39,424 nucleotides of DNA from Triparma columacea. Lineage: Eukaryota; Sar; Bolidophyceae; Parmales; Triparmaceae. Shown piece after piece: positions 3,499 to 25,435 of the stretch (the first letter of the stretch is position 1; every line of letters begins with the position of its first letter). The stretch spans positions 1 to 39,424 of the forward strand of contig BRYA01000489.1 of the NCBI GenBank assembly GCA_030267965.1. Direction: 5' to 3'. The notes below the pieces were generated by a model that saw nothing but the letters and a program-made list of their open reading frames with translations, made no database searches and was not told where the DNA came from. The position numbers and the translations under genes were made by a program.

Positions 3499-5112
3499 TT
3501 ATGAGGAGTGCATTTCATTAGCGGTACGACAAAGGTGTTTCTTGATGCTCCTTTTCTCCTTTGCCTTATATTCACACCCTTCTGACGGGCATGTATGCCA
3601 CGTTACACCAATATCGTGAACATTAGCAAGGTGTGACTTGATGCTGACTCTCAACTTTGCCTTATATTCACACCCTTCTTGCGGGCATGTATGCCAGGTT
3701 ACGCCAATATTGTGAATATTAGCAAGGTGCGTCTTGAGAATGCCTCTCCGCTTCGCTTTATATTCACACCCCTCTTGCGGGCATGGATGCCATGTTACGC
3801 CAATATCGTGAATACTAGCAAGGTGTCTCTTGATAGTGCCTCTCTGCTTCGCCTTATATTCACAACCCTCTTGCGGGCATGTATGCCAGGTTACGCCAAT
3901 ATCGTGAATATCAGCAAGGTGCTGCTTGATGTTGCTTCTCTCCTTCGCCTTATATTCACAACCCTCTTGCGGGCATGCATGCCATGTTACACCAATATCG
4001 TGAATATTAGCAAGGTGTAACTTGATATCGCCTCTCTGCTTTGCCTTATATTCACACCCTTCTTGCGGGCATGTATGCCACGTTACACCAATGTCGTGGA
4101 TATTAGCAAGGTGTCTCTCGATCTTGACTCTCTCCTTCGCCTTATATTCACACCCCTCTTGCGGGCATGTATGCCATGTTACGCCAATATCGTGAACATG
4201 AGCAAGGTGCCTCTTGATGTGCTCTTCCTTCTTCGCCTTGAATTCACATCCCTCTTGCGGGCAACTATGCCATGTTACGCCAATATCGTGAACATTAGCA
4301 AGGTGGGTCTTGATTCTGCCTCTCAACTTTGCCTTAAATTCACACCCTTCTTGCGGGCATTTATGCCACGTTACACCAATATCGTGAATATGAGCAAGGT
4401 GTATCTTGAGATTGCTTCTCTGCTTCGCCTTATATTCACAACCCTCTTGCGGACATGTATGCCAGGTTACGCCAATGCCGTGAATATGAGCAAGGTGATA
4501 CTTGATGTGGCATCTCTGCTTTGCCTTATAATCACACCCTTCTTGCGGGCATGTATGCCATGTTACGCCAATATCGTGAATATCTGCAAGGTGCTTCTTG
4601 ATTCTGCCTCTCTCCTTCGCCTTATATTCACACCCCTCTTGTGGGCATGTATGCCACGTTACGCCAATATCGTGAATTAGAGCAAGGTGGCTCTTGAGTT
4701 GTGTTCTCTCCTTCGCCCTATATTTGCATCCTCTCTGTCTGCAGCGGTAAGGCCTCTTTTTCATCTCTTCCTTGTCGTACCCATACAACCTCGCAGCAAC
4801 CTGTCCATTAACACCCACCACTCCAACCCCACTGCTGTTAGTCTTCCTTTCAGCAATAACCTCCACATCCTCATCACATGGTTGGCAAACAAGAAGATCA
4901 TGCCTTACCACGTCATAATCTTCATCAACGACATCGCTTCCCGAGCCATCTACACCAATCGCTGACGATATACCCTTGTTGCGTCCTTGAAACTCAGGAA
5001 GGATACCTGGTTCCGTCGATGTAAATTCTTCCACCTTGAAATCATCTATTGTGGTGGTATTTGGCGCAAATATGTCCATATGTGACCCCAAACTCTCACT
5101 GAACACCGACAT
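3499..5112 (-). CDS. ZF-A: tandem C2H2-type zinc-finger protein (13 fingers)
   Basis: Intronless, 537 aa. The first 119 residues are the family's conserved N-terminal region (starts MSVFSESLGSHMDIFAP, later HDLLVCQPCDED) with a type-1 linker that runs into a divergent first finger (CRQRGCKYRAKE). The next fingers are 32-residue units on the plan C-x4-C-x12-H-x4-H with near-constant TWHTCPQEGCEYKAK and HDIGV segments. Helix positions -1, 2, 3 and 6 vary from finger to finger. The linker is not the canonical TGEKP. The last finger is damaged: relative to ZF-B, one base is missing just after the CR codons, so the ending CRHR-stop becomes CRTANEMHSS and the final His is lost. It is divergent from the protease-like gene that starts 216 bp away. 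Sequence-specific DNA binding is inferred from the fold. Confidence 0.85.
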   Translation of the reverse strand: MSVFSESLGSHMDIFAPNTTTIDDFKVEEFTSTEPGILPEFQGRNKGISSAIGVDGSGSDVVDEDYDVVRHDLLVCQPCDEDVEVIAERKTNSSGVGVVGVNGQVAARLYGYDKEEMKKRPYRCRQRGCKYRAKERTQLKSHLALIHDIGVTWHTCPQEGCEYKAKERGRIKKHLADIHDIGVTWHTCPQEGCDYKAKQRCHIKYHLAHIHGIGVTWHTCPQEGCEYKAKQRSNLKIHLAHIHDIGVTWHKCPQEGCEFKAKLRGRIKTHLANVHDIGVTWHSCPQEGCEFKAKKEEHIKRHLAHVHDIGVTWHTCPQEGCEYKAKERVKIERHLANIHDIGVTWHTCPQEGCEYKAKQRGDIKLHLANIHDIGVTWHACPQEGCEYKAKERSNIKQHLADIHDIGVTWHTCPQEGCEYKAKQRGTIKRHLASIHDIGVTWHPCPQEGCEYKAKRRGILKTHLANIHNIGVTWHTCPQEGCEYKAKLRVSIKSHLANVHDIGVTWHTCPSEGCEYKAKEKRSIKKHLCRTANEMHSS

Positions 5113-5174
5113 GCTCGACCAGCAAGTGTATTCTTGTCAAATTCTTCCAGTAACAGCTTTGCAAAGTGGTTCCC
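5113..5174 (-). promoter_or_regulatory. Conserved 5' block of ZF genes (ZF-A copy)
   Basis: About 60 bp directly upstream of the ATG are almost identical in ZF-A, -B, -C and -D and recognisable in ZF-E (read on the plus strand as gctcgaccagcaagtgtatt, then cttccagtaacagc). It is probably the 5' UTR with core promoter elements. No known motif was recognised. Confidence 0.6.
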
Positions 5175-5252
5175 AAATAAATTGCTTCCTTCCGATTCCT
5201 CCCCCATTTCCCATTCCTTTCTCCTTTCCCTCTCAACTTCACCTCCCTTCCC

Positions 5253-5300
5253 AAAAAGATCAAGGTCGCAAGGGACGCGAGAGGGAGGCCTGTCAAAGCT
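5253..5300 (+). pseudogene. Orphan fragment resembling the last exon of the SAP-domain gene
   Basis: Translating 5253-5300 gives KKIKVARDARGRPVKA, close to the tail KKIKVKRDKRGRPVKE of the SAP-domain protein 1.9 kb upstream. Many differences are synonymous third-base changes. It lies in frame with, and just upstream of, the protease ATG but has no sign of the preceding SAP exon. It could be a relic of a second SAP-gene copy or a shared coding module. Confidence 0.5.
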
Positions 5301-5327
5301 TTTTGCATAAATTCGAGCTCAAGACCA

Positions 5328-6566
5328 ATGAAATTGCTCCATCTCTGCCTCGTTTTCCTGTGCCAGAATGTAAGGGGTGAATACCCCGGCCCAATTGACA
5401 CCTCCATCGACTCTAATGCTGACGGAATGCCGGACAAACTCCGGTATGCTGACGACATCCCTATTTATCCAGGATCCCGATGCGGAGAGAATTTCAAGCT
5501 TTCGCCTCCTGATAGCGATTTCGGAAGAAATACCGACACGTTGCTTTGCGTTGGTCGTCCCGTGAACGGGGCCAAAGAGCAGGACGGGGACAGCGGCGGC
5601 CCAGTCTACACTGAAATCGACGGTGTGCGTGTTCAGGTTGGGGTTAACACTGGAAGTTATCCCGCTGACTACTTTCGTAACGGCGGTCCCGCAGACACCC
5701 ACATCGGGTACTACACGAGGGTGGATTCGCCTACGATAAAGCCTTGGCTCGCAGAGATTCTGGCGGGGAACCTTGCAGCCGCAAAAGCTATGACCTGTTC
5801 AGAACTGGGCGGAAAAACGAGCCCTGACCCCAACCCCCCCGACCGCCGCCGCCTCGACAACAATGGCAAACAGCGACGCCTGATCTCTGGTGCGACAGAG
5901 CAGGCAACTGAAACGCAATTTCCTGAACTCACTAGCACGGGAGGCTTGTATACAGATGAATCAGGGACGAAAGTATGGGATGCCGGATGCGATGGCACGC
6001 TGATCAAAAGCAACGCCGTGCTGCTCGCCGCCCATTGCTTCACCAACACAGAAATGGAAGCTTCAAAGGATCAAATGCGGCTATGGCCGGGCGCTTGGAA
6101 CATTGCAGACCCAGGCGCGAGCGAATCTAAAATGCGATTTGCTTCGGAGGTCATTAGGCATCCATGTTACACGCTCACGAATTACCCGGCATGCCTGGAT
6201 GCAAGCTACCCTAACGACTGCAGTGATAAATCGAAACCAATGGAGGACATTGCGGTCGCCATTTTGGAGGGAGACGCCGCAGTAGGATTGGCCACGACCC
6301 CGCTCCTAGGCCAAGGCGATCATGCCGATGTTGTGCTAGAGTTCCCTGTTTTGGGGACCATCGCTGGGTTAGGACGTTACTGTGACCCTGCAGCCGACGA
6401 GGACCCATCAAAGTGCACGATGGAAGATTATATTGTGCCTTCTGATGGCGACGAGGACGGGGACGCGGACGAGGTCGTCGATGGAGATTCGTCGGGGATG
6501 ACGCTTCAGATTGCCCCCTTGTGGTTGAGCGTTGGTTTAGCTTGTCTTATTATTGCAATAAATTAA
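5328..6566 (+). CDS. S1 (trypsin-like) protease with half-domains in reversed order
   Basis: A single 412-aa frame. Residues 1-17 form a good signal peptide (MKLLHLCLVFLCQNVRG). Residues about 35-145 match the C-terminal half of a trypsin-like domain: CVGRP, then GDSGGPVY with the nucleophile Ser89, VGVNTG, and a closing TRV...KPW. After a Lys/Arg-rich linker, residues about 185-350 match the N-terminal half: an activation-like start (RRLISGATEQ), LLAAHCF with His236, and MEDIAVAIL with Asp307, followed by GTIAGLGRYC. An acidic linker and a C-terminal hydrophobic segment (PLWLSVGLACLIIAIN) suggest membrane or GPI anchoring. The catalytic order is thus Ser-His-Asp instead of His-Asp-Ser. It may be a circular permutation, or what remains between two tandem protease domains. 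Each half keeps its hallmark residues. Confidence 0.75.
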   Translation: MKLLHLCLVFLCQNVRGEYPGPIDTSIDSNADGMPDKLRYADDIPIYPGSRCGENFKLSPPDSDFGRNTDTLLCVGRPVNGAKEQDGDSGGPVYTEIDGVRVQVGVNTGSYPADYFRNGGPADTHIGYYTRVDSPTIKPWLAEILAGNLAAAKAMTCSELGGKTSPDPNPPDRRRLDNNGKQRRLISGATEQATETQFPELTSTGGLYTDESGTKVWDAGCDGTLIKSNAVLLAAHCFTNTEMEASKDQMRLWPGAWNIADPGASESKMRFASEVIRHPCYTLTNYPACLDASYPNDCSDKSKPMEDIAVAILEGDAAVGLATTPLLGQGDHADVVLEFPVLGTIAGLGRYCDPAADEDPSKCTMEDYIVPSDGDEDGDADEVVDGDSSGMTLQIAPLWLSVGLACLIIAIN

Positions 6567-6747
6567 TGAACAAAAACATGAACTAGGGATCCCTACCAGC
6601 TCATTACGAATATCACCTACACATTAGCCAACCTAATTTAATGAAAGAAAATAACAGGACTTTTGAATACGCGTATAAATTTAGAGTTTCGTTGTGAGTT
6701 CGGTTGTGAGTTAGGGCTTAAGGTTTGGCTGTGAGGAGTGCGTTTGA

Positions 6748-8055
6748 TTAGCGGTGACGACAAATGTGTTTCTTGATGCTGCCTTTCCACTTCGTCTTAT
6801 ATTCACATCCTTCTTGCGGGCATGTATGCCATGTTACGCCAATATTGTGAATACTAGCAAGGTGGCTCTTGAGGCTGCCTTTCATCTTCGCCTTGAATTC
6901 ACAACCCTCTTGCGGGCATGGATGCCAGGTTACGCCAATATTGTGAGTATGAGCAAGGTGCTTCTTGATGCTGCTTTTCTCCTTCGCCTTATATTCACAC
7001 CCTTCTTGCGGGCATGTATGCCAGGTTACCCGAATATCGTGGATATTAGCAAGGTGCCTCTTGAGTTGTTTTCTCTCCTTCGTCTTATATTTACACCCAT
7101 CTTGCGGGCATGTATGCCACTTTACGCCAATATCGTGAATAGTAGCAAGGTGTCTCTTGATATTGCCTCTCATCTTCGCCTTATATTCACATCCGTCTTG
7201 TGGGCATGTATGCCATGTTACGCCAATATTGTGAATATTAGCAAGGTGGACCTTGATGTTTTCTCTCCGCTTCGCCTTATATTCACACCCTTCTTGCGGG
7301 CATGTATGCCATGTTACGCCAATATCGTGAATTTGAGCAAGGTGGGTCTTGATGCTGCCTCTGTCCTTTGCCTTATATTCACAACCCTCTTGCGGGCATG
7401 GATGCCACGTTAAGCCAATATTGTGAATACCAGCAAGGTGCTTCTTGATGCTGCCTCTCCCCTTCGCCTTATATTCACACCCATTTTGCGGGCATGTATG
7501 CCACGTTACGCCAATATCGTGAATATGAGCAAGGTGGAGCTTGATGCTGCCTCTCTGCTTTGCCTTAAATTCACACTCCTTTTGCGGGCATGTATACCAT
7601 ATTGTGCTAATACCGAATTGAGACTTCTTTTCATACGCAGGCTTATATTCATCATCATCATTTTCACCACTGTTACCATCACCATCCCAAGAGTCCTCGT
7701 CCTCGTCATAGTCTTCTTCGCCATTGTCATAAGTGTATTCCATTCTCGTTTCTCTCTCTCTCTCCTTGGTCCTGCTGTTGGTCTTCCCTTGAGCATCAAC
7801 CTCCACATCGTCATCACATGGTTGGCAAACAAGTAGATCATGCTGTACCACGTCATATTCTTCACCAACGACATCGCTTCCCGATCCATCTACACCAATC
7901 GCTGACGATATACCCTTGTTGCGTCCTTGAAACCCAGGAAGGATACCTGGTTCCGTCGATGTAAATTCTTCCACCTTGAAATCATCTATTGTGGTGGTGA
8001 CAGCAGGCGCAAATATGTCCATGTGTGACCCCAAACTCTCACTGAACACCGACAT
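6748..8055 (-). CDS. ZF-B: tandem C2H2-type zinc-finger protein (9 fingers)
   Basis: Intronless, 435 aa. The N-terminal region is nearly identical to that of ZF-A, but the linker is type 2: basic RTKERERETR, then a long Asp/Glu/Gly stretch, then DEYKPAYEKKSQ. Nine fingers follow; the last ends KKHICRHR, a complete C-x4-C-x12-H-x3-H finger. Comparison with this tail shows the base loss in ZF-A. The 3' flank (about 6630-6747) resembles those of ZF-A and ZF-C. The start codon is 145 bp from the ATG of the divergent oxygenase gene. Base-contact positions vary between fingers as in the other copies. Confidence 0.87.
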   Translation of the reverse strand: MSVFSESLGSHMDIFAPAVTTTIDDFKVEEFTSTEPGILPGFQGRNKGISSAIGVDGSGSDVVGEEYDVVQHDLLVCQPCDDDVEVDAQGKTNSRTKERERETRMEYTYDNGEEDYDEDEDSWDGDGNSGENDDDEYKPAYEKKSQFGISTIWYTCPQKECEFKAKQRGSIKLHLAHIHDIGVTWHTCPQNGCEYKAKGRGSIKKHLAGIHNIGLTWHPCPQEGCEYKAKDRGSIKTHLAQIHDIGVTWHTCPQEGCEYKAKRRENIKVHLANIHNIGVTWHTCPQDGCEYKAKMRGNIKRHLATIHDIGVKWHTCPQDGCKYKTKERKQLKRHLANIHDIRVTWHTCPQEGCEYKAKEKSSIKKHLAHTHNIGVTWHPCPQEGCEFKAKMKGSLKSHLASIHNIGVTWHTCPQEGCEYKTKWKGSIKKHICRHR

Positions 8056-8110
8056 GCTCGACCAGGAAGTGTATTCTTGTCAAATTCTTCCAGTAACAGC
8101 CAAAAAAGTG
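8056..8110 (-). promoter_or_regulatory. Conserved 5' block of ZF genes (ZF-B copy)
   Basis: Same block as upstream of ZF-A, with a single change in its first 20 bases (gaccagg for gaccagc). Homology fades after the aacagc motif, only about 90 bp before the ATG of the divergent oxygenase gene, so the two genes must share promoter space. Confidence 0.55.
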
Positions 8111-8200
8111 GAAAAATTTGCTCCTCCCATTTCTCTTTCCATTCACCTCCCTTCTCCTCAAAACTCCTTCCGCATTTCATCACCCCCCCATCACACCAAG

Positions 8201-9609
8201 ATGCAAATGTCCCGTTCCCTCATGTCGTCACGCATCCTATCTTCCCCTAAACCCTTCAAAAACCTACCAACCTTAACCTGTCGACTTTCCTCGACACTCC
8301 CAATCCGTTACCTCAACGATTCAAACCCCGCTATTTACCCCCCTCCATCCTACCAGCGTTCTGATGTCCTAATACACCCCCAAACAGGTGTAAAAACTGG
8401 TGTTGTTCCCTCCCCACCCCTAGCCATGACTCCCTTAGAAATTGCTAACCTCGACCAAACTTCGGAGCTCGGGGGAACCCCGGCGTTGGGTTTTTACTCC
8501 CCCCCCCCAATCGTCCCGTGGGGGTCCTCGCTGTCTCTACGCTCCCCCGAGGTGTCGTTCGACTACTTTGACTTGTTGGGTTCCAGCGAGTGCAACGACG
8601 AGGCTCTTGTCCAGCTATACAAGCATGGGATACTCAGGGTTTACAACACTCCGACGGACCAAGATGGGCAGTGGCTACTAGCCGAGTGTTTCAGCGGGGG
8701 CGGGAAGGATAAAAGAGATGAGAGGGATAGGTGAGGAAATAAGTAAATAGGGTGGGGAGGCCCCCTTCCGCGCAGAGTTGCGCGAACGAACATACTAGAG
8801 GATTAAAATGGCACACAAACAATCCAACTCCACGCCCTCCCCCCCCCCCCTCCTCTCCCCCGCCCACCTCTCCCAAACCATCCAGATCAATCTACACCTC
8901 TAACTCCGGTCCCATGAAGACCCTTTATGGTACAACATGGTCCACCTCAACCTCTTCCAGCCTCCAAGGTTCCTCCACCTCCACCGCAGACTCTGCTTAC
9001 ACTTCATTACCCTTACCCCTCCACACCGACATGACATACTTCCACAGTCCCCCCGGTCTCCAGATCTTCACGATGTCGTCTCCCGCCCCTAATGGTGGCG
9101 GCGCTAGCGTTTACCGCGACGGCTTTGAGGCCGCCCGTGCCCTGTTCGAGCTCGATAGGGGAGCGTTCGAAATTTTGACGGAGGCTGAGTTTACGTACCG
9201 TTATATAGACGAGGATCAAGGTTGGCATCTTGAGGCATCTGGTCCGATTATATCCGTGGATAAAACTCGCCTCCACGAGGACGGTACACCCGTCGTTAAA
9301 AGTATCAGGCACAACGACCTCGATAGGGTAGGTTTCCTCCCCCCCCTCACAGCTAGCGTCCCCTCCGCCTGGTACGATACGGTCGACCTCGCGTTGCGCA
9401 AGTGGGACGAGGTCGTGCACGAGCGGGGGAGGGTGAAGGAGCACTTGCGGGCAGGAGAGGCGGTGATCGTGCACAATAACAGGGTCATGCACGCTAGGGA
9501 AAGCTTCGAACTGGGGGAGGGGGAGGAGAGGAGCATCGTCGGATGCTATGTTAGTAGGGAGGACATTGAAAGCAGGTGGAGGAGAGTTATGACAAAGAGG
9601 TTAGAATAG
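8201..9609 (+). CDS. Gamma-butyrobetaine / trimethyllysine hydroxylase-like Fe(II)/2-oxoglutarate oxygenase
   Basis: Two exons, 8201-8730 and 8886-9609, joined in phase 2 through a 155-bp intron (GTGAGG donor, C-run, CATCCAG). The protein is 417 aa, like human BBOX1 (387) and TMLHE (421). The Ser/Arg-rich, acid-poor N-terminus suggests mitochondrial import. The TauD-type catalytic domain keeps the iron ligands His223 and Asp225 (LPLHTDMTYF) and His379 (NNRVMHARESFE), plus the 2-oxoglutarate-binding Arg392 in ERSIVGCY. PPGLQ after the HxD and SRWRR near the end are typical of the family. The likely role is a hydroxylation step of carnitine synthesis. I cannot separate GBBH from TMLH, and the usual N-terminal DUF971-like domain is not obvious. 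Confidence 0.82.
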
Positions 9610-9760
9610 AGGAGGAGGAGAAATAATGGTTGAGGGTGTAAATCAATTCGTTTGCCGTTTGCGCTAGAAAAACATTCATTAAACTTGCTCGTTTGGTTGT
9701 GCTTCGCTATTCACAGTTCACCTAAACACTTTTGAATCGTCGGTATTGATCATCTTCTGT

Positions 9761-11312
9761 CTATTGGTTCTCCTGGAGCACCTTGACGACGGACTTGAAG
9801 GCGAACCACTCGGGGATGTCCTCTCCAGCCCTGAGGGCCTTGCGGAACTTGGTTCCTGAGAGGGTCTTCTTGGTGAGTCCCCTTTCAGCGGCCTCGTCAG
9901 CAGTGACGTAACCCTCCTCCTCAGTGTAGACAAGGTTGAGACTGGGGACGGCCTTAATTCCGAGCTCAGGTCCCTTCTCCTTGAGGAGGTCCTGGGCGTC
10001 GTAGGCTCCGTAGAAGTCATCTCCGGTGACGGAGCTCTTGGATCCGGCCATGTCCCTCCCGACAATGAAGGCGGTGCAGCCGTAGTTCTTCCTGATCATG
10101 GCGTGCTGGATGGCCTCCCTGGGGCCAGCCATGTGCATGGAGTAGGGAAGGTAGGCCCAGAAGGTGCGGGGGTTGGCGGTCTCCTCCTTGAGGACCTCGT
10201 ACGTCTTGTACCTAACGGTTCCGGGGATGTCGTCGGCCTGGGTGGGACCACAGGTGGGGTGGACGAGGACGACTGAGTCGCTGTCGACCTCGGGGGCCTC
10301 GAGGGCCCTGGTGAAGAGCTCGTAGTGAGCGCGGTGGATGGGGTTACGGCACTGAAACGCGACGACGTCCTTGTCAGCGGGGAGCATGCTGCGGACCTCC
10401 TTGGGGGTGGCGCAAGCGAAGTCCCTGATGGGGAGGTTGAGGCCAGTGACCTTTCCACCCATGTAGTACTTTCCACGCTCGGTGGCGACCATGAGGGTTC
10501 CAGGGTGCTCAATCGCGCTGGTTCCATAGCATTTGAGAGTCTCAAGAGGCTTGTCGGGGGTGTACTTGTCGGTGAACTCAATGGTAGCAATCTCGCGGTC
10601 TCCATCCTTAAGGAGGGCAACGTCTCCAGGCTGGAGGGTCTCATCGTCAGTGTCAAAGATAATGGGGAGGCCGAAAATGAGGCCATTCTCGAGGGCCATG
10701 TTCTCAACAACACTCTTGTAGGCTGCCTCCTCCATGAAGCCGGTAAGGGGGGAAAGTCCTCCGTTCATGATGAGCTCGACATCGCAGAGCTGCCTGGGGG
10801 TGAGCTGAAGGGTCTTGGTGCACTTGGCAATAGCAGCAGCAGGGTCGGAAGTCATCAAGTCAACGAGGGTTCCTCCGTGGGGCTGAGCGCGGAGTCCATC
10901 TGCGAGGAGAGGATAGAAAGAGTTAAAATGTGTACAAATATATAGGATGTATGTTTAAAAGTGAGGAAAAAGTACATGCATTCGGTGCTGATTCACCACC
11001 ACCGCCCCGAGTTTGTGGACGTGAAGGAAATTTATCTTGGATTTGAAGTTTACGAGACAAAACCTCAAACCACGACTACTAGAAAGGCAACTAACAAGAA
11101 GCTACGAACGTTGATTTCAAAGAACCTCCAAACAATGTAACAAGAGGAGGGGTTGATGCAATTTCCGCAGACCGTCGAAACCACCCATGCGAAAAATCCT
11201 ACTCACCAGTGGTAGCCGACATGGAAAGAGCGAAACTGGCGGGCTTCGTCATAGGAGCGCTCATGAATGCGGTGGCAGAGCCGATGAGGAGAGAGATGGA
11301 AAGGAGCTTCAT
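9761..11312 (-). CDS. ATP sulfurylase (sulfate adenylyltransferase), plastid-targeted
   Basis: Two exons on the minus strand: 11312-11207 and 10899-9761, joined in phase 1 through a 307-bp intron (GTGAGT ... CTCGCAG). The protein is 414 aa. Exon 1 encodes MKLLSISLLIGSATAF followed by MSAP, a signal peptide with the TAF|M variant of the plastid-import motif and then a Ser/Ala/Lys-rich transit peptide. The mature part begins RAQPHGGTLV and contains the nucleotide-binding motifs FQCRNPIHRAH (about 217-227), HPTCGPTQADD (about 249-259) and GRDMAG (about 316). It converts sulfate and ATP to adenosine 5'-phosphosulfate, the first step of sulfate assimilation. No APS-kinase or pyrophosphatase domain is fused. 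The coding sequence is smooth and GC-rich, typical of high expression. Confidence 0.93.
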
Positions 11313-11785
11313 TTCCAAAGTTTCTTATGTGGCCAAAAGCAAAAAATGGTTTCGATCCTATGGTTGGGGATCCGAAGGAAGCCATTTCAACTTTGTGAGG
11401 CCAAATGATCGGGCCTAAGGCCAATTGCTAAAAATAAATATCGCCAAGCCGTAACGTATCGATGGCCTCCCGAACTGCGTCGCTCCCCTGTGCTTCTTGT
11501 CTTATTTTACAACTTGAACTTGCTTCAACCTATTTCATTCGTCCCTGTCCCCGTCCCCGTCCGCGTCCGCGAATCTGCGTTGGAGTATTTCGCAGTTGAC
11601 TGTTGAGCCCCCCTCTTCAACCCATTCAACCCCTCCCGTAACTCAAGATCCCGTCCAAATTTTCCACCCCTCTCGACCAAAAAAGGTCGTTTTACTAGGA
11701 TTTCTCAAGTGACAAACTTTCAGCCTCCCCTCCCCCCCCCTCACGTTTCCGCCCCAACTCCTCCCCTAAATCTCGCACCCCCGCC
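11313..11785. other. Divergent intergenic region between ATP sulfurylase and the CTFKP protein
   Basis: 473 bp between two divergent start codons; no gene seen. It holds a short pyrimidine-rich array of gtccc/gtccg repeats near 11540-11572 and C-rich tracts before 11786, probably promoter or 5' UTR sequence for both genes. Confidence 0.55.
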
Positions 11786-14526: not shown

Positions 14527-14610
14527 TAAGGCGAGTTAATAGAGATTCGATCATGTTGTACAAAGAAAAAGACACTCAATTGAATAAAGAAATTGCATGT
14601 AGAACATTTT

Positions 14611-17600: not shown

Positions 17601-18807
17601 CCCCCTCAACCTCTCCCCTATTCTCACCTCCCTCTGATCCATTCCAAAGCTTCCTTCTTAGCTTCCCTTTCATACTCCTCAAGTTCCTTAACCTCCATAT
17701 CCCCCGCAACAACATCCAAAACCTGCTGTCCCGCATGGCAATCCTCACAAACATCAACCCCAGTTTCAAACCCATACTGCAGCATGGGTGTACCACGATG
17801 TAGTATTTGGTTTGTGCGATAAGAGAGACCACAGGACATGCAGAAACGGTAGGTGTCGTGGAGGTGGGGGTGGATACGGAGACCGGAGGTGGGGCAGGTG
17901 GAGAGAGTCTGGACGGGGGGAGGACCGAAACTTTTACCCCTGACCAAGGTTTTAGATTACAAGGTGAAGGGGGGTTATGAGTGTGTGTGTGTGTGTGTGT
18001 GTGTCAGTATATATAGTATATATATGCATTGTCCGTAACCGACCCCCCCCTTCCTTACCTATAAACCCCAATCTCCGCTTGTCCATACGGTGTTTTCCAG
18101 TACCCTCCCTCCTCCTCATCATAAACAACATCATCTCCCCCATCCTTCCCTCCTACCCCTAACTTCTTCTCATCTCTAACCTGAAGTCCACGTAGGAGAG
18201 AACAGCTACCGTTGTAAATTGCGTTCACCCAACCTGACACTTCACCTGTGGAGCACTTGCAGTGTATTAGTGTTGAGGTGTGAGTTATTATTGTGAACGT
18301 TGATGCTGGGGTCATTGGGGTTGAGGATGTTGACACACGGCGGCCGGAGGCTTGATCTGACTTTGTTGGGGTGGAGGTGGACGTGGAAATTGAAGAGGTG
18401 GAGGATGGGTGGGGAGGTGGAGGAAGTGATTGTGGATTGTGGGAGGAGGACATTGGGACTACATCATCTGAGGGCTTGGGATCAGAGGCAGATGCTATGT
18501 AGACTATTGAGATTGGGTTTGCACCTTTGAAGTAATCCTCTTTAGTCTTATATCTTCTCATTGTTACTCCACTAAGAACAACAAAGTACTCTGATCTATT
18601 ACTACCACCCTTATGTCCTCCAGTTCCCTCTCCTCCTCCAAGACCGTATCCTTCATTGTTTACGTAAGTAGAGTCATTACCATCAAAACGACATCTATTA
18701 TCTTCAGCTGTTGTTAGCTCTGAGATATGATAAGAATGGTAAGGGAAGGAGGAGGGTGGTAGACGGGATGAGGGGGTTAGGGTGAGGTAGCCTGAGTAGA
18801 GGGACAT
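14611..18807 (-). CDS. PH-domain phosphatidylinositol 4-kinase (type III-beta / Pik1-like)
   Basis: Seven exons on the minus strand: 18807-18059, 17939-17628, 17464-16639, 16499-16137, 16027-15656, 15562-15272, 15201-14611. All phases agree and the product is 1167 aa. Exon 1 is a PH domain (SLYSGYLTLT, YFVVLSGVTMRRYK, closing helix GEVSGWVNAIYNG). Exon 2 has two CxxC pairs (CMSC and CEDC, about 30 residues apart), a probable zinc site. Exon 3 is a helical lipid-kinase accessory region with an acidic insert. The catalytic domain shows TPILVYLEIEA, HLPNWDLVGLIVKANDDVRQE, the loop IKDRHNGNILL and IDFGF; it matches PI4K III-beta better than III-alpha (GGKDGDLYFKF after the activation loop). It makes PI4P, usually at Golgi or endosomal membranes. 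The 93-bp fifth intron is in frame and stop-free. Confidence 0.85.
17981..18004. repeat. (GT)12 microsatellite in the first PI4K intron
   Basis: Twelve GT dinucleotides (CA on the coding strand), followed by an AT-rich stretch. It lies between exons 1 and 2 of the PI 4-kinase gene. Confidence 0.95.
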
Positions 18808-19228
18808 GTATGGGAGGAGAAGAAGGGGGGGATTGGGAAAAGAGACGGTAGGAAAGGAGACGTTAGGAAAGGAGACGTTAAGAAGAGGAGTTTTTGAGGA
18901 GAGGAGGCCCGAGGAGGCGTGAGTGGAGCTTATTAATGGTTAAGGAGGGGATTAATATGAATTTAAATGAGTGGGGTATGAAGATATATATATTTATTGT
19001 CGTCACAATGATATATATAACGCGAGGGAGGGTTGGATTGAGGTAATCTTATTGATATTTGAAAAAGGCAGAAATTCATTTTTCATTCGGAAGGATTCGG
19101 GGTTGGGTTGGTGTCTACAGTAATTTAATGCTAATTTAATGTGGCGTAAAAACAAGACGTTTTGAAAGACGCGTATAAGTTTTTACTTTCGTTGTGAGTT
19201 TGGGCTTCAGGTTCGGCGTTGAGATTCA
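18808..19228. other. Intergenic region between PI4K and ZF-C
   Basis: No gene seen. It includes a 15-bp tandem repeat (gagacggtaggaaag and two variants, 18842-18886), AT-rich palindromic stretches near 18980-19020, and from about 19120 the ZF-type 3' flank with the doubled motif taatttaatgctaatttaat before GTGGCG, shared with the flanks of ZF-D and ZF-E. Confidence 0.6.
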
Positions 19229-20155
19229 TTAGTGGTGACGACATATGTGCGTCTTGATACTGCCTCTCTGCTTCGCCTTATATTCACACCCTTCTTGCGG
19301 GCATGGATGCCATGGTCCACCAATGTCGTGGATATTAGCAAGGTGGCTCTTGATATTGCTTCTTTTTTTCGTCTTATACTCACACCCTTCTTGCGGGCAT
19401 GTATGCCATGTTACGCCAATATTGTGAATATGAGCAAGGTGCTCCTTGATATGGGATCTCATCTTCGTCTTATATTCACACCCTTCTTGTGGGCATGAAT
19501 GCCAGGTAACACCAATATCGTGAATACTAGCAAGGTGATCCTTGATGCTGCTTCTCTGCTTTGCCTTATAATCACACCCTTCTTGCGGGCATCTATGCCA
19601 TGTTACACCAATATCGTGAATACGAGCAAGGTGGTTCTTGATATTGTATCTCTGCTTCGCTTTATAATCACACCCTTCTTGCGGGCATGTATGCCATGTT
19701 ACGCCAATATTGTGAACACTAGCAAGGTGCTTCTTGATATCGCCACTCTCCTTCGCCCTATATTTGCATCCTCTCTGTTTGCAGCAGTAAGGCCTCTTGT
19801 CTATCTCTTCCTCATCGTACTCATACAACCTCGCAGCCACCCGTCCATTCACCCCCACCACTCCAACCCCACTGCTGTTAGTCTTCCTTTCAGCAACAAC
19901 CTCCACATCCTCATCACATGGTTGGCAAACAAGTAGATCATGCTGTACCGTGTCATAATCTTCACCGACGACCTCGCTTTCCGCTCCATCTACACCAATC
20001 GCTGTCGATGTTTCCTTATTGCCTCCTTGAAACTCAGGAAGGATACCAGGTTCCGTCGATGTAAATTCTTCCACCTTGAAATCATCTATTGTGGTGGTGA
20101 CAGCAGGCGCAAATATGTCCATGTGTGACCCTAAACTCTCACTGAACACCGACAT
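19229..20155 (-). CDS. ZF-C: tandem C2H2-type zinc-finger protein (6 fingers)
   Basis: Intronless, 308 aa, the shortest family member. It has the conserved N-terminal region and a type-1 linker like ZF-A (SSGVGVVGVNGRVAARLYEY), then the divergent first finger CKQRGCKYRAKE and five standard 32-residue fingers; the last ends KTHICRHH. The small array could be the product of unequal recombination that deleted fingers. It is the first of three ZF genes arranged head-to-tail. Confidence 0.85.
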   Translation of the reverse strand: MSVFSESLGSHMDIFAPAVTTTIDDFKVEEFTSTEPGILPEFQGGNKETSTAIGVDGAESEVVGEDYDTVQHDLLVCQPCDEDVEVVAERKTNSSGVGVVGVNGRVAARLYEYDEEEIDKRPYCCKQRGCKYRAKESGDIKKHLASVHNIGVTWHTCPQEGCDYKAKQRYNIKNHLARIHDIGVTWHRCPQEGCDYKAKQRSSIKDHLASIHDIGVTWHSCPQEGCEYKTKMRSHIKEHLAHIHNIGVTWHTCPQEGCEYKTKKRSNIKSHLANIHDIGGPWHPCPQEGCEYKAKQRGSIKTHICRHH

Positions 20156-20504
20156 GCTCGACCAGCAAGTGTATTTTAGTCAAATACTTCCAGTAACAGC
20201 TTAGCAAGTTGTTCCCATTTTCTCTTGGCGAGGACGGAGTACATAATAGAAGAGGAGCAAAACATTTTGCTAACTTAACGCTAATTTAACGTGGCGTCAA
20301 GAACAGAACCTTAGAGCTTCCTACTTCAAAAAACTTTAGCACCGCCGCTTTAGCATATTTCGTTTAACATGCTTGAACTCTATTTGTGTAACAATATAAG
20401 ATGCAAAATATATTTAATCAACAATGTTAAAGAAGGTTTAGATGCTTCGACTCTGCTTAAGATGAATCAACTTATACGTGATGCTTAGAAATGTGTCTCT
20501 TGAG
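20156..20504. repeat. ZF intergenic direct repeat, copy 1 (ZF-C 5' side to ZF-D 3' end)
   Basis: About 350 bp that recur with high identity at 22263-22614. The repeat contains the ZF 5' block, the segment gaggagcaaaacattttgct, the doubled gctaacttaacgctaattta motif, an AT-rich stretch and the 3' end of the next ZF gene. It defines the unit by which ZF genes were duplicated in tandem. Confidence 0.85.
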
Positions 20505-22229
20505 GCTGGATCTCTCCTTCGCCTTATATTCACACCCTTCTTGCGGGCATGTATGCCATGTTACGCCAATATCGTGAATATAAGCTAGGTGCTTCTTGAG
20601 AGTGCCTCTCTCCTTTGCCTTATATTCACACCCTTCTTGCGGGCATGTATGCCATATTACACCAATGTCGTGGATGTTAGCAAGGTGTCTCTCGATCTTG
20701 ACTCTCCGCTTCGCTTTATATTCACATCCCTCTTGCGGGCATGGATGCCAAGTTACTCCAATATTGTGAATACCAGCAAGGTGCTCCTTGATGCTCCCTC
20801 TCATCTTCGTCTTATATTCACACCCTTCTTGTGGACATGGATGCCAAGTTACTCCAATATTGTGAATATTAGCAAGGTGCTCCTTGATGCTCCCTCTCAT
20901 CTTCGTCTTATATTCACACCCTTCTTGTGGGCATGTATGCCAGGTTACTCCAATATCGTGAATTAAAGCAAGGTGGACCTTGATATTGGATCTGTCCTTC
21001 GTCTTATATCCACACCCTTCTTGCGGGCATGTATGCCATGTTACACCGATATCGTGAATATTAGCAAGGTGTAACTTGATGTTGCCTCTCTGCATTGCCT
21101 TATATTCACACCCTTCTTGCGGGCATGTATGCCAGGTTACGCCAATGCCGTGAAAAAGAGCAAGGTGCTGCTCGATGCTTCTTCTCTCCTTCGCCTTATA
21201 GTCACACCCTTCTTGTGGGCATGTGTGCCACTTTACGCCAATATTGTGAGTATAAGCAAGGTGGGTCTTGATGCAGCTTTTCATCTTCGTCTTATATTCA
21301 CATCCTTCTTGTGGGCATGTATGCCATGTTACGCCAATATTGTGAATACAAGCAAGGTGTGTCTTGATAGTGCCTCTCATCTTCGTCTTATACTCACACC
21401 CTTCTTGCGGGCATGTTTGCCACGTTACACCAATATCGTGAATTAAAGCAAGGTGGACCTTGATGTTTTTTTTCTCCTTCGCCTTATATTCACACCCTTC
21501 TTGCGGGCAACTATGCCATGATCCGCCAATATCGTGAAAATTAGCAAGGTGCCTCTTGAGATTGCCTCTCTGCTTCGTCTTATATTCACAACCCTCTTGC
21601 GGGCATGTATGCCAGGTTACACCAATATCGTGAATAAAAGTAAGGTGCTGCTTGATTAGGCCTCTCTGCTTCGCCTTATATTCACACCCCTCTTGCGGGC
21701 ATGCATGCCATGTTACGCCAATATCGTGAATATAAGCAAGGTGGGTCTTGATGCTGCCTCTTAACTTTGCCTTATATTCACACCCTTCTTGCGTGCATGT
21801 ATACCATATTGTGCTCATACCGTATTGAGACTTCTTTTCATACCCAGGCTTATATTCATCATCATCATTTTCACCACCATCACCATCATCATCCCAAGAG
21901 TCCTCGTCCTCGTCATAGTTTTCTTCGCCATTGTCATAGGTGTATTCCATTCTCGTTTCTCTCTCTCTCTCCTTGGTCCTGCTGTTGGTCTTCCCTTGAG
22001 CAACAACCTCCACATCCTCATCACATGGTTGGCAAACAAATAGATCATGCCTCACCACGTCATAATCTTCACCAACGACATCGCTTCTCGATCCATCTAC
22101 ACCAATCGCTGACGATATACCCTTGTTGCGTCCTTGAAACCCAGGAAGGATACCTGGTTCCGTCGATGTAAATTCTTCCACCTTGAATTCATCTATTGTG
22201 GTGGTGACAGCAGGCGCAAAGATGTCCAT
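20472..22229 (-). CDS. ZF-D: tandem C2H2-type zinc-finger protein (14 fingers), family start codon lost
   Basis: Intronless; 14 fingers, ending KRHISKHHV like ZF-E. The N-terminal region and type-2 acidic linker match ZF-B. The ATG used by the other copies is ATT here (bases 22262-22260, followed by the usual TCGGTGTTC), so the first usable in-frame ATG is at 22229 (MDIFAPAVTTT), 11 residues shorter. A GTG at 22256 also lies in frame but is an unlikely eukaryotic start. The rest of the frame is intact, so loss of the start may be recent or tolerated. Fingers 10 and 11 share the segment TKMRGSIKEHLA, a local duplication. Confidence 0.8.
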   Translation of the reverse strand: MDIFAPAVTTTIDEFKVEEFTSTEPGILPGFQGRNKGISSAIGVDGSRSDVVGEDYDVVRHDLFVCQPCDEDVEVVAQGKTNSRTKERERETRMEYTYDNGEENYDEDEDSWDDDGDGGENDDDEYKPGYEKKSQYGMSTIWYTCTQEGCEYKAKLRGSIKTHLAYIHDIGVTWHACPQEGCEYKAKQRGLIKQHLTFIHDIGVTWHTCPQEGCEYKTKQRGNLKRHLANFHDIGGSWHSCPQEGCEYKAKEKKNIKVHLALIHDIGVTWQTCPQEGCEYKTKMRGTIKTHLACIHNIGVTWHTCPQEGCEYKTKMKSCIKTHLAYTHNIGVKWHTCPQEGCDYKAKERRSIEQHLALFHGIGVTWHTCPQEGCEYKAMQRGNIKLHLANIHDIGVTWHTCPQEGCGYKTKDRSNIKVHLALIHDIGVTWHTCPQEGCEYKTKMRGSIKEHLANIHNIGVTWHPCPQEGCEYKTKMRGSIKEHLAGIHNIGVTWHPCPQEGCEYKAKRRVKIERHLANIHDIGVIWHTCPQEGCEYKAKERGTLKKHLAYIHDIGVTWHTCPQEGCEYKAKERSSLKRHISKHHV

Positions 22230-22262
22230 GTGTGACCCCAAACTCTCACTGAACACCGAAAT

Positions 22263-22614
22263 GCTCGACCAGCAAGTGTATTTTTGATGGTACTTTCCAG
22301 TAACAGCTTAGGCAAAGTGGTTCCCATTTTCTCTGGCGAGGATTCGGAGATTCGGAGTAGAGGAGGAGCAAAACATTTTGCTAACTTAACGCTAATTTAA
22401 CGTGGCGTAAAAAAACAGGACCTTAGGGCTTCCTATTATTACAAACTTTAGCACCGCCGCTTTAGCATATTTCGTTTAACATGCTTGAACTCTATTTGTG
22501 TAACAATATAAAATGCTCAAATATATTTTATGCAACAATGTTAAAGAAGGTTTAGATGCTTCGACTCTTCTTAAGACGAATCAACTTATACGTGATGCTT
22601 AGAAATGTGTTTCT
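22263..22614. repeat. ZF intergenic direct repeat, copy 2 (ZF-D 5' side to ZF-E 3' end)
   Basis: Second copy of the repeat at 20156-20504, with scattered substitutions and small indels (for example an extra cggagatt near 22345). Confidence 0.85.
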
Positions 22615-25435
22615 TGAGTTCTGATCTCTGCTTCGCTTTAAATTCACACCCCTCTTGCGGGCATGGATGCCATGTTGCGCCAATACCGTGAACACGAGCA
22701 AGGTGCGTCTTGATAGTACTTCTCTGCTTCGCCTTATATTCACACCCTTCTTGCGGGCATGGGTGCCACGTTACGCCAATATCGTGAATACCAGCAAGGT
22801 GTAAATTGATGCTGCTTCTCTGCATTGCCTTATATTCACACCCTTCTTGCGGGCATGTATGCCATTTTACGCCAATATTGTGACTACTAGCAAGGTGATA
22901 CTTGATGCTGCTTCTCTGCATTGCCTTATATTCACAACCTTCTTGCGGGCATGTATGCCATGTTACACCAATATCGTGAATATTAGCAAGGTGATCCTTG
23001 ATAGTGCTCCTTTGCTTCGTCTTAAATTCACACCCTTCTTGTGGGCATGTATGCCATGTTACGCCAATATTGTGAATATTAGCAAGGTGCTGCTTGATAT
23101 TGCCTCTCTGCTTCGTCTTAAATTCACACCCTTCTTGCGGGCATGTATGCCATGTTACGCCAATATCGTGAACATAAGCAAGGTGGGTCTTGATGCTGCC
23201 TCTGTCCTTTGCCTTATATTCACACCCTGCTTGCGGACATGTATGCCATGTTACGCCAATATTGTGAACATGAGCAAGGTGCCTCTTGATGTGCTCTTCC
23301 TTCTTCGCCTTAAATTCACATCCCTCTTGAGGGCAACTATGCCATGTTACGCCAATATCGTGAACATTAGCAAGGTGGGTTTTGATGCTGCAGCTCTTCT
23401 TCGCCATAAATTCACATCCCTCTTGCGGGCAACTATGCCATGTTACGCCAATATCATGAACATTAGCAAGATGGGTCTTGATGCTGCAGCTCTTCTTCGC
23501 CATGAATTCACACCCCTCTTGCGGGCATGTATGCAAGGTTACGCCAATATCGTGAACATGAGCAAGGTGCCTCTTGATGTGCTGTTCTTTCTTCACCTTG
23601 AATTCACATCCCTCTTGCGGGCAACTATGCCACGTTACACCAATATCGTGAACATGAGCAAGGTGGGTCTTGATGCTGCTTCTCTGCTTCGCCTTATATT
23701 CACACCCTTCTTGCGGGCATGTATGCCACGTTACGCCAATGTCGTGAATATGAGCAAGGTGTAACTTTAAACTACTTCTCTGCTTCGCCTTATATTCACA
23801 CCCCTCTTGCGGACATGTATGCCATGTTGTGCCAATATCGTGAACATGAGCAAGGTGTAACTTGATGTCGCCTCTCTGCTTTGCCTTATATTCACACCCT
23901 TCTTGCGGGCATGCATGCCAGGTTACGCCTATGTCGTGAACATGAGCAAGGTGATGCTTGATGCTGCATCTCTGCTTTGCCTTATATTCACACCCTTCTT
24001 GCGGGCATGTATGCCATGTTACTCCAACATCGTGAATATTAGCAAGGTGGGTCTTGATATTGCCTCTCTGCTTCGCCTTATATTCACAACCCTCTTGCGG
24101 GCATAGATGCCACGTTAAGCCAATATCGTGAATACCAGCAAGGTGGGTCTTGATGCTGCCTCTGTCCTTTGCCTTATATTCACACCCTTCTTGCGGACAT
24201 GTATGCCATGTAACGCCAATATCGTGAATAAAAGCAAGGTGGGTCTTGATCTTGCCTCTTTCCTTCGTCTTATACTCACACCCTTCTTGCGGGCATTTAT
24301 GCCATGTTACGCCAATATCGTGAATTAAAGCAAGGTGGGTCTTGATGTGGGCTCTCATCTTCGCCTTATATTCACACCCCTCTTGCGGGCATCTGTGCCA
24401 GGTTACACCAATATCGTGGATACCAGCAAGGTGCTGCTTGATCATGTTTCTCGCCTTCGTCTTATATTCACAACCCTCTTGCGGGCATGTATGCCAAGTT
24501 ACGCCAATATCGTGCATATCAGCAAGGTGCTTCTTGATGCTGCTTCTCTGCTTCGCCTTATATTCACACCCTTCTTGTGGGCATGTATGCCATGATCCTC
24601 CAATATCGTGAATATGAGCAAGATGGGTCTTGATGTTGCCTCTCTGCTTCGCTTTATATTCACACCCTTCTTGCGGACATGTATGCCATGTAACGCCAAT
24701 ATCATGAATTTGAGCAAGGTGGGTCTTGATGCTGCCTCTCTGCTTCGCCTTATATTCACACCCCTCTTGCGGACATGTATGCCATGTAACGCCAATATCG
24801 TGAATTTGAGCAAGGTGGAGCTTGAAGCTGCCTCTCGTCTTCGTCTTATATTCACACTCATCTTGTGGGCATGAATGCCATATTGTGCTAATCCCGTTCT
24901 GAGACTTCTTTTCATACCCAGGCTTATATTCATCACCATCATTTTCACTACCATCACCATCACCATCACCATCCCAAGAGTCACCGTCATCGTCGTTGTC
25001 ATCGTAGTATTCCTCAGTAATCTCATCGCATGGTTGGCAAACAAGCAGATCATGCTGTACCACGTTACCATCATCTATCTCTTTCTCATCGTACTCATAC
25101 ATCCTCACAGCCACCTGTCCAGTCACCCCCACCACTCCAACCTCACTGCTGTGAGTATTCCTTTCAGCAACAACCTCCACGATCTCATACTCATCACATG
25201 GTTGGCAAATAAGCAGGTCATGCTTTATCCCGTAGTTATCATCTTCAACCACCTCCCCGTTTTCCGTTTCCTTGATACAATTCACTGTCGTTGTACCCTT
25301 ATTTGTGCCTTGAAACTTAGGAAAAATACCTGGTTTTGACGATGTGAATTCTTCCAACTTGAAAGAATCTATTATGGTGGTATTTGAAGCAAATAAGCCC
25401 TTGTGCGACCACATATTCTCACTGAACACCGACAT
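22586..25435 (-). CDS. ZF-E: tandem C2H2-type zinc-finger protein (24 fingers)
   Basis: Intronless, 949 aa, the largest member. The 184-residue N-terminal part is the most divergent (MSVFSENMWSHKGLFAS). It combines both linker types: the type-1 segment (SSEVGVVGVTGQVAVRMYEY) is followed by a second HDLLVCQPCDE motif and the acidic type-2 segment ending DEYKPGYEKKSQ. Twenty-four fingers follow on the C-x4-C-x12-H-x4-H plan, ending KKHISKHHV. Fingers 15 and 16 are near-identical neighbours, and finger 17 matches finger 6 of ZF-A. Helix position 6 alone takes at least eight different residues across the array. The gene is divergent from citrate synthase, start codons 169 bp apart. It could be closest to the ancestral architecture or a fusion of two N-terminal types. 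Confidence 0.88.
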   Translation of the reverse strand: MSVFSENMWSHKGLFASNTTIIDSFKLEEFTSSKPGIFPKFQGTNKGTTTVNCIKETENGEVVEDDNYGIKHDLLICQPCDEYEIVEVVAERNTHSSEVGVVGVTGQVAVRMYEYDEKEIDDGNVVQHDLLVCQPCDEITEEYYDDNDDDGDSWDGDGDGDGSENDGDEYKPGYEKKSQNGISTIWHSCPQDECEYKTKTRGSFKLHLAQIHDIGVTWHTCPQEGCEYKAKQRGSIKTHLAQIHDIGVTWHTCPQEGCEYKAKQRGNIKTHLAHIHDIGGSWHTCPQEGCEYKAKQRSSIKKHLADMHDIGVTWHTCPQEGCEYKTKARNMIKQHLAGIHDIGVTWHRCPQEGCEYKAKMRAHIKTHLALIHDIGVTWHKCPQEGCEYKTKERGKIKTHLAFIHDIGVTWHTCPQEGCEYKAKDRGSIKTHLAGIHDIGLTWHLCPQEGCEYKAKQRGNIKTHLANIHDVGVTWHTCPQEGCEYKAKQRCSIKHHLAHVHDIGVTWHACPQEGCEYKAKQRGDIKLHLAHVHDIGTTWHTCPQEGCEYKAKQRSSLKLHLAHIHDIGVTWHTCPQEGCEYKAKQRSSIKTHLAHVHDIGVTWHSCPQEGCEFKVKKEQHIKRHLAHVHDIGVTLHTCPQEGCEFMAKKSCSIKTHLANVHDIGVTWHSCPQEGCEFMAKKSCSIKTHLANVHDIGVTWHSCPQEGCEFKAKKEEHIKRHLAHVHNIGVTWHTCPQAGCEYKAKDRGSIKTHLAYVHDIGVTWHTCPQEGCEFKTKQRGNIKQHLANIHNIGVTWHTCPQEGCEFKTKQRSTIKDHLANIHDIGVTWHTCPQEGCEYKAMQRSSIKYHLASSHNIGVKWHTCPQEGCEYKAMQRSSINLHLAGIHDIGVTWHPCPQEGCEYKAKQRSTIKTHLARVHGIGATWHPCPQEGCEFKAKQRSELKKHISKHHV
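23348..23539 (-). repeat. Recent 96-bp finger duplication in ZF-E (fingers 15-16)
   Basis: Two adjacent 96-bp units differ at only a few bases and both encode the unusual finger CEFMAKKSCSIKTHLANVH, seen nowhere else in the window. This is a fresh unit-level duplication. Confidence 0.85.

Follow-up and report, generated by a model that had tools for sequence, protein, structure and literature searches.

Two expanded zinc-finger families of animals, KRAB-ZNF of tetrapods and FiNZ-ZNF of cyprinid fish, consist of one N-terminal module placed on many C2H2 arrays; they are large, lineage-specific and clustered, their base-contact residues are under selection, and the linker of KRAB-ZNF proteins is of the TGEKP type. 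PRDM9 is another system in which contact positions are selected and arrays change faster than their flanks, and TFIIIA and CTCF are single conserved genes with fixed specificity. Fast-changing DNA-reading residues are a pattern described mainly in animals. Here we describe an arms-race-like zinc-finger family outside animals, in Triparma columacea, an alga of the Parmales and sister to diatoms. The family has an N-terminal region and finger types of its own, plus two additional variable positions. The stretch analysed, called the window below, is the 39,424 nucleotides of contig BRYA01000489.1 (positions 1 to 39,424, assembly GCA_030267965.1), and it contains five genes of the family, A to E. 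Judging from sequence patterns, we consider it probable (about 0.55) that these predicted sequence-specific DNA-binding proteins silence or block selfish DNA, with a repertoire similar to that of KRAB-ZNF.

The preliminary description of the window had likened the arrays to PRDM9 or KRAB-ZNF, and the likeness to KRAB-ZNF stands in both architecture and evolution: as in KRAB-ZNF and FiNZ-ZNF, one N-terminal module is joined to many C2H2 arrays in a large, lineage-specific and clustered family with selected base-contact residues. There are also differences, as no KRAB model was present among the Pfam matches to E = 1 in the five window proteins, the single search made with the N-terminal region returned no relatives beyond the family, the fingers are of the REST/ZNF462 type with H-x4-H and an 8-residue linker unlike the TGEKP-type linker, two extra positions are hypervariable, and the host is an alga and not an animal. 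The best sequence match of the alga fingers is TFIIIA and the best structure matches are TFIIIA and CTCF, whose arrays share C-x4-C with them (TFIIIA also the 8-residue linker). A group of nuclease-tailed proteins has the same WHxC...H(D/N)I(G/D)V finger and the same variable helix positions, and is unlike the window genes in its VSR-like tail and different N-terminus. Expanded C2H2 families in phytoplankton are already in print; arrays, contact residues and selection are not treated in the available part of that paper (PMC11409870).

The main-class finger unit reads WHxCPQEGCEYKAK(-1)R(2)(3)IK(6)HLA(10)IHDIGVT, with helix positions in brackets, and its linker, H-DIGVTWHx-C, has 8 residues and is not TGEKP-type. 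The window and 30 fetched loci gave 54 open reading frames (ORFs) with 500 strict fingers (C-x4-C-x12-H-x4-H), of which 466 complete units were analysed, while 34 were left out as incomplete or as having a first residue other than W, P, L or Y; the 466 units represent 465 distinct protein sequences. A conserved backbone with variable helix positions -1, 2, 3 and 6 had been reported for the window, and it holds both there (61 full units) and in the 466 units, but as a list of the variable positions these four, all confirmed, omit helix position 10 and the residue before Cys1. Entropy in the 466 units was 3.49 bits at position 6, 3.10 at 3, 2.97 at -1, 2.90 at 10, 2.56 at 2 and 2.32 before Cys1, and 1.43 bits or less at all other main-class positions. 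Helix position 10 sits one turn past position 6, on the same helix face. The second finger class, C-x2-C-x12-H-x4-H in a 30-residue unit, is led by the same six positions (41 fingers; -1 2.87, 10 2.78, 6 2.54, 3 2.29, before Cys1 2.07 and 2 1.81 bits, the remaining positions 1.48 or less), which replicates the main-class pattern. In the tail-bearing homologues with at least four units (66 of 87 proteins), the within-array mismatch was 0.70–0.82 at -1, 2, 3, 6 and 10, and it did not exceed 0.57 at any other position, including the residue before Cys1. Covariation was strongest for -1 with 2 and for 2 with 3 and weaker among other positions, which is not taken as proof, since neighbouring codons are linked anyway.

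For selection, codon models (IQ-TREE) with a separate omega (the ratio of nonsynonymous to synonymous rates, dN/dS) per partition were fitted to a random 160 of the 466 units, on a tree of the backbone codons and on a tree of all codons, and values are given in this order. Omega was 2.57 and 1.90 for the contacts -1, 2, 3 and 6 jointly, 3.39 and 1.94 for position 10, 2.98 and 2.33 for the residue before Cys1, and 0.34 and 0.30 for the backbone codons. With kappa kept fixed in the null models, omega = 1 was rejected at the contacts (p = 1.9e-8 and 3.6e-4), before Cys1 (p = 2.5e-3 and 0.024) and at position 10 on the backbone tree (p = 1.1e-3). Lack of a replacement excess at -1, 2, 3 and 6 had been named beforehand as an outcome that would refute diversification of the contact residues; the excess was present, and the contact-codon omega of 1.9–2.6 against 0.30–0.34 in the backbone supports the earlier interpretation. 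Parsimony on a tree of units gave replacement ratios of 4.4 before Cys1, 2.3 at 10, 2.1 at 2, 2.0 at -1 and 1.4 at 6, and contact dN divided by backbone dS was 2.0 (all-site tree) to 4.4 (backbone tree).

The codons themselves are informative as well. The wobble base is mostly fixed, and bases 1 and 2 are variable, at -1 (G), 2 (C), 10 (T) and before Cys1 (A); among the 16 commonest codons of position 10 in the 466 units the third base is T in 405 and C in 25. A fixed wobble beside variable first and second bases makes relaxed constraint or local hypermutation less likely at -1, 2 and 10. Codon 3 of the second class is CAT, AAT, ACT or TCT in 36 of 41 fingers, with the wobble mostly fixed, and codon 6 is CAG, AAG, ACG or AGG in 31 of 41. 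Backbone codons are nearly frozen (Cys1 TGC 452/466, Cys2 TGT 437/466, His7 CAC 442/466, and the His after Trp CAT 386/466 with CAC 21/466), and such arbitrary choices indicate recent common ancestry or homogenisation at the DNA level instead of plain codon bias. The wobble of the Thr17 codon is saturated (diversity 0.72), while those of Cys, His and Lys are nearly frozen. In addition, a collinear alignment of paralogue fingers for per-pair dN/dS was unusable, the 54 ORFs giving one run with score 9 (shuffled best 3) and three at 4.

In the examples compared, array interiors were replaced faster than ends and flanks. Units differ at 18.2 of 96 bases within an array and at 18.8 of 96 between arrays. 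Of 71 gene pairs whose N-terminal DNA has an identity of 88% or more over 200 bp or longer, the 40 listed have no more than two fingers in common that lie within 6 bases of each other in sequence difference. For example, genes g38 and g42 are 98.7% identical over 450 bp of the N-terminal part and 91.8% over 450 bp downstream, with few fingers corresponding, and in one corresponding pair the residue changes are only at -1, 2 and 3. Metagenome proteins show the same: P0008 is 98% identical to g44 over 137 N-terminal residues, with an identical first finger and different later fingers, and P0019 has the last two fingers in common with g14 (one and no residue different) and a different interior. 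The case of P0006 and gene C is milder, where six fingers remain in order, four differing at most variable positions and two keeping most of them.

The features of the family in the window are as follows:
3499..5112, minus strand: gene A, 537 aa, N-terminal region, 12 strict fingers and a last, degenerate finger
4753..5112, minus strand: shared N-terminal region of gene A, motifs GILPxFQG and HDLLVCQPCDED, no Pfam match
3532..4724, minus strand: 96-bp finger array of gene A (Tandem Repeats Finder, TRF; period 96, 12.4 copies)
6748..8055, minus strand: gene B, 435 aa, N-terminal region, then an acidic spacer, 8 strict fingers and a final H-x3-H finger
7765..8055, minus strand: shared N-terminal region of gene B (N-terminal region search)
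6771..7599, minus strand: 96-bp finger array of gene B (TRF, period 96)
19229..20155, minus strand: gene C, 308 aa, N-terminal region with 6 fingers
19793..20155, minus strand: shared N-terminal region of gene C (N-terminal region search)
19252..19762, minus strand: 96-bp finger array of gene C (TRF, period 96)
20472..22256, minus strand: gene D, 594 aa if read from GTG, 14 fingers, true start uncertain
21975..22259, minus strand: shared N-terminal region of gene D (N-terminal region search)
22586..25435, minus strand: gene E, 949 aa, 24 fingers
25070..25435, minus strand: shared N-terminal region of gene E (N-terminal region search)
20498..24881, minus strand: 96-bp finger arrays of genes D and E, a single TRF row covering both (period 96)

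The count of 66 fingers in five minus-strand genes given in the preliminary description is reached with 64 strict fingers (12, 8, 6, 14 and 24 in genes A to E) and two degenerate terminal units, one each in genes A and B. Its 96-bp unit was borne out, the strict fingers of the five ORFs being always 32 residues apart and the TRF period 96; in the larger sample the finger-to-finger spacing was exactly 32 in 439 of 446 cases. The label "intronless" is uncertain at the 5' end, because gene D has ATT in place of its relatives' MSVFSE ATG (22240-22310), and the residue at this start varies across the family (I in 13, M in 10 and T in 1 of the 24 ORFs with the motif), so the true start possibly lies upstream, downstream or behind an intron. 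All genes stop at the last finger or shortly beyond it, and Pfam PF23223 (zf-C2H2_ZNF462) and PF13909 (zf-H2C2_5) were above the curated cut-off in all five proteins.

The window genes are a small part of a larger family. In the genome searched (37.85 Mb, 789 contigs), which differs from the 43.0 Mb and 1,858 scaffolds given in the accessible text of the genome paper (PMC10328945), an exact degenerate pattern of the finger core had 659 matches and a control pattern 0, so the pattern is not due to chance. Since 345 of 500 fingers read fit the core pattern, about 955 main-class fingers are estimated for the genome. The N-terminal region had at least 149 matches, which give at least 139 loci on 91 contigs when pieces less than 400 bases apart are merged, a lower bound with 150 of 161 candidates scored; another search for the family had at least 152 matches (81 of 258 candidates scored), and of its matches listed 17 cross an in-frame stop, some merely by overrunning the gene end, so some copies may be broken.

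The N-terminal region comprises about 95–120 residues with the conserved motifs GILPxFQG and HDLLVCQPCDEDxEVVAE; after it comes either of two spacers, of which one is acidic (48 sequences aligned). It is predicted to be disordered, as residues 1-120 in the AlphaFold2 (AF2) model of gene C have a predicted local distance difference test score (pLDDT) below 50, followed by six beta-beta-alpha fingers. When used alone in a protein search that covered candidates of 0.55–1.75 times the query length, it returned 6 relatives, all zinc-finger proteins and all jgi or ena records. Reading of seven stretches with N-terminal matches outside the finger list (L056-L062) revealed the second finger class, which is joined to the same N-terminus in 10 genes, mostly with 4–5 fingers each (41 fingers). 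With two finger classes joined to it, the N-terminal region is a common module, as KRAB or FiNZ is. Among named public proteins the family seems to be absent, as no TrCOL-named protein was among the best 120 of 218 homologues; the word "zinc" is absent from the main text of the Parmales genome paper (PMC10328945), and no title or abstract that describes the family surfaced in a literature search that covered few subscription papers.

It is likely, judged by sequence, that the proteins bind DNA in a sequence-specific manner. The best match of the fingers in the PDB by sequence is TFIIIA on 5S DNA, where the TFIIIA linker HNIKICVYVC, which we take to be the one between fingers 3 and 4, aligns without gaps to HGIGVTWHTC of the window. 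The doubt raised earlier about DNA binding through an 8-residue linker is eased by this alignment, although not removed. The AF2 model of gene C matches the DNA complexes of CTCF, TFIIIA, ZFP568 and PRDM9, a result possible for any C2H2 array. To hypothesize on the mechanism, the zinc-stabilised helix of each finger is predicted to lie in the major groove, the nearly frozen backbone and the TFIIIA-like linker would fix the spacing, and the variable side of the helix (-1, 2, 3 and 6, with 10 a turn further along) would read bases or the DNA backbone, while the N-terminal region, predicted disordered and followed in many members by an acidic stretch, may recruit a partner. New specificities would arise from gene duplication, from gain, loss and exchange of fingers in the arrays and from selected changes at the reading positions, likely driven by an arms race with retrotransposons or DNA viruses. 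Plausible targets exist in the genome, though few, as seven RVT_2 loci, presumably copia-type, have open frames of 549-3574 aa (C408, C557, C277, C401, C687, C20 and C368) and are possibly young retrotransposons.

Several observations weigh against silencing of selfish DNA by selected readers. Those seven are the only RVT_2 matches, a small visible load of this type of element. The N-terminal region matches no known domain (no Pfam match in the window proteins), and its constraint is weak, with a median ratio of nonsynonymous to synonymous differences (pN/pS) of 0.75 in 212 close pairs of 1078. Finger trees are approximate owing to the short 96-base units, gene conversion and exchange, so that the p values are guides, and position 10 was not significant on the all-codon tree (p = 0.071). 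Position 3 of the main class has no excess in its own codon (0.88 and 0.67 on the two trees), and helix position 1, outside the six, is in excess on the all-site tree (2.3, p = 0.006). Codons 3 and 6 of the main class have diverse wobble bases. Within the contact codons, pairs of units give a pN/pS of about 1 (1.05 when they are 1–12 bases apart), which is probably explained by multi-step codon changes that raise pS; the excess is visible against backbone pS, in the tree counts and in the codon models. In nine collinear finger pairs the summed dN at -1, 2, 3 and 6 (0.34) is below dS (0.64), in a small count dominated by codons 3 and 6. In these two main-class codons all three bases vary and several amino acids keep a favoured codon, which looks as though old codon types had been exchanged among fingers.

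Most homologues among the matches listed have a tail similar to VSR nuclease and to proteins of giant viruses. In P0013, P0022, P0032, P0076 and others, which are metagenome proteins resembling those of giant viruses, finger arrays are joined to the VSR-like tail, and such proteins are candidate natural zinc-finger nucleases. A Pfam scan of five tail-bearing proteins found no nuclease model, and a Foldseek search of a nuclease-tailed model against the PDB had finger structures only among its best 50 rows, the VSR-like match coming from a second look. P0076 had 171 matches in the alga genome, and among the matches listed all lie in the finger part, with identities of up to 65% across several fingers, while tail searches with two queries, made without a positive control, returned one finger match or nothing. 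Pattern scans of IMG/VR returned no relative, which is no evidence of absence since the patterns span few peptides, and a capsid search for nucleocytoplasmic large DNA viruses (NCLDV) gave no match with its controls silent too. One tail-bearing array, P0056, is filed under a Legionellales metagenome-assembled genome and is possibly a misbinned eukaryotic or viral contig.

The family could descend from, or counter, zinc-finger nucleases of giant viruses or other selfish elements, with the finger kept and the nuclease tail absent, its proteins occupying nuclease targets or marking viral DNA, and we regard this as unlikely. That the alga has evolved a protein-based genome immunity outside animals, with more than 100 fast-changing readers that use the finger of nuclease-tailed proteins similar to ones from algal giant viruses, read additionally through position 10, and are in an arms race with those nucleases or mobile DNA, is a tentative proposal that we find doubtful. 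It seems improbable that these are ordinary expanded regulatory factors, for example for cold or stress, with contacts diversified to divide target genes: factors in stable regulatory networks usually retain their specificity, and omega above 1 with near-total array replacement between very recent copies fits such networks poorly. In its favour, and against silencing of selfish DNA, C2H2 expansion in other phytoplankton has been interpreted as cold adaptation, with enrichment of the families in the polar clades of Bathycoccus and in certain other phytoplankton, of which two are polar, according to the available sections (PMC11409870), and the isolate of T. columacea came from the Sea of Okhotsk, as stated in the accessible text of its genome paper (PMC10328945).

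The likeness to PRDM9 is the weaker half of the earlier comparison, and a PRDM9-like system setting meiotic recombination sites is very improbable. The family is multigene, with at least 139 loci instead of one, its arrays are not homogenised internally as a minisatellite would be (18.2 against 18.8 of 96 bases, units not near-identical), and the five window proteins have no SET or SSXRD match; what is common to both is selected contacts and rapid array turnover (PMC3890296, available part). Finally, the arrays could bind RNA or protein, or be decaying repeats under relaxed constraint with helix-face variation unrelated to DNA. TFIIIA-type fingers bind 5S rRNA as well. Fingers of WT1 can also bind RNA, the WT1-RNA entry 6wlh being among the structure matches, and the matches crossing in-frame stops would suit decay. 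Against this, the zinc ligands stay in register with almost invariant spacing, backbone omega is about 0.3, and the wobble is mostly fixed in several variable codons, a feature that relaxed constraint does not predict; we find this reading quite unlikely.

Apart from the finger genes, the window contains an ATP sulfurylase:
9761-10858: ATP sulfurylase, matching Triparma columacea TrCOL_g5196 with 100% identity over 365 residues; identity to T. retinervis is 94%
A trypsin-domain ORF lies between genes A and B on the plus strand (5328-6566), an ORF of a 75-bp tandem repeat with DUF285 (E 3.8e-105) is located at 138-941, and a histone deacetylase domain protein at 34573-35676 has no link shown to the finger genes.

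If this family does silence selfish DNA, a single-celled phototroph related to diatoms would be using the ZNF arms-race strategy separately from animals. Since the fingers resemble those of giant-virus-like zinc-finger nucleases, a host-virus origin can be tested, and the tail-bearing proteins may be nature's equivalent of engineered zinc-finger nucleases.
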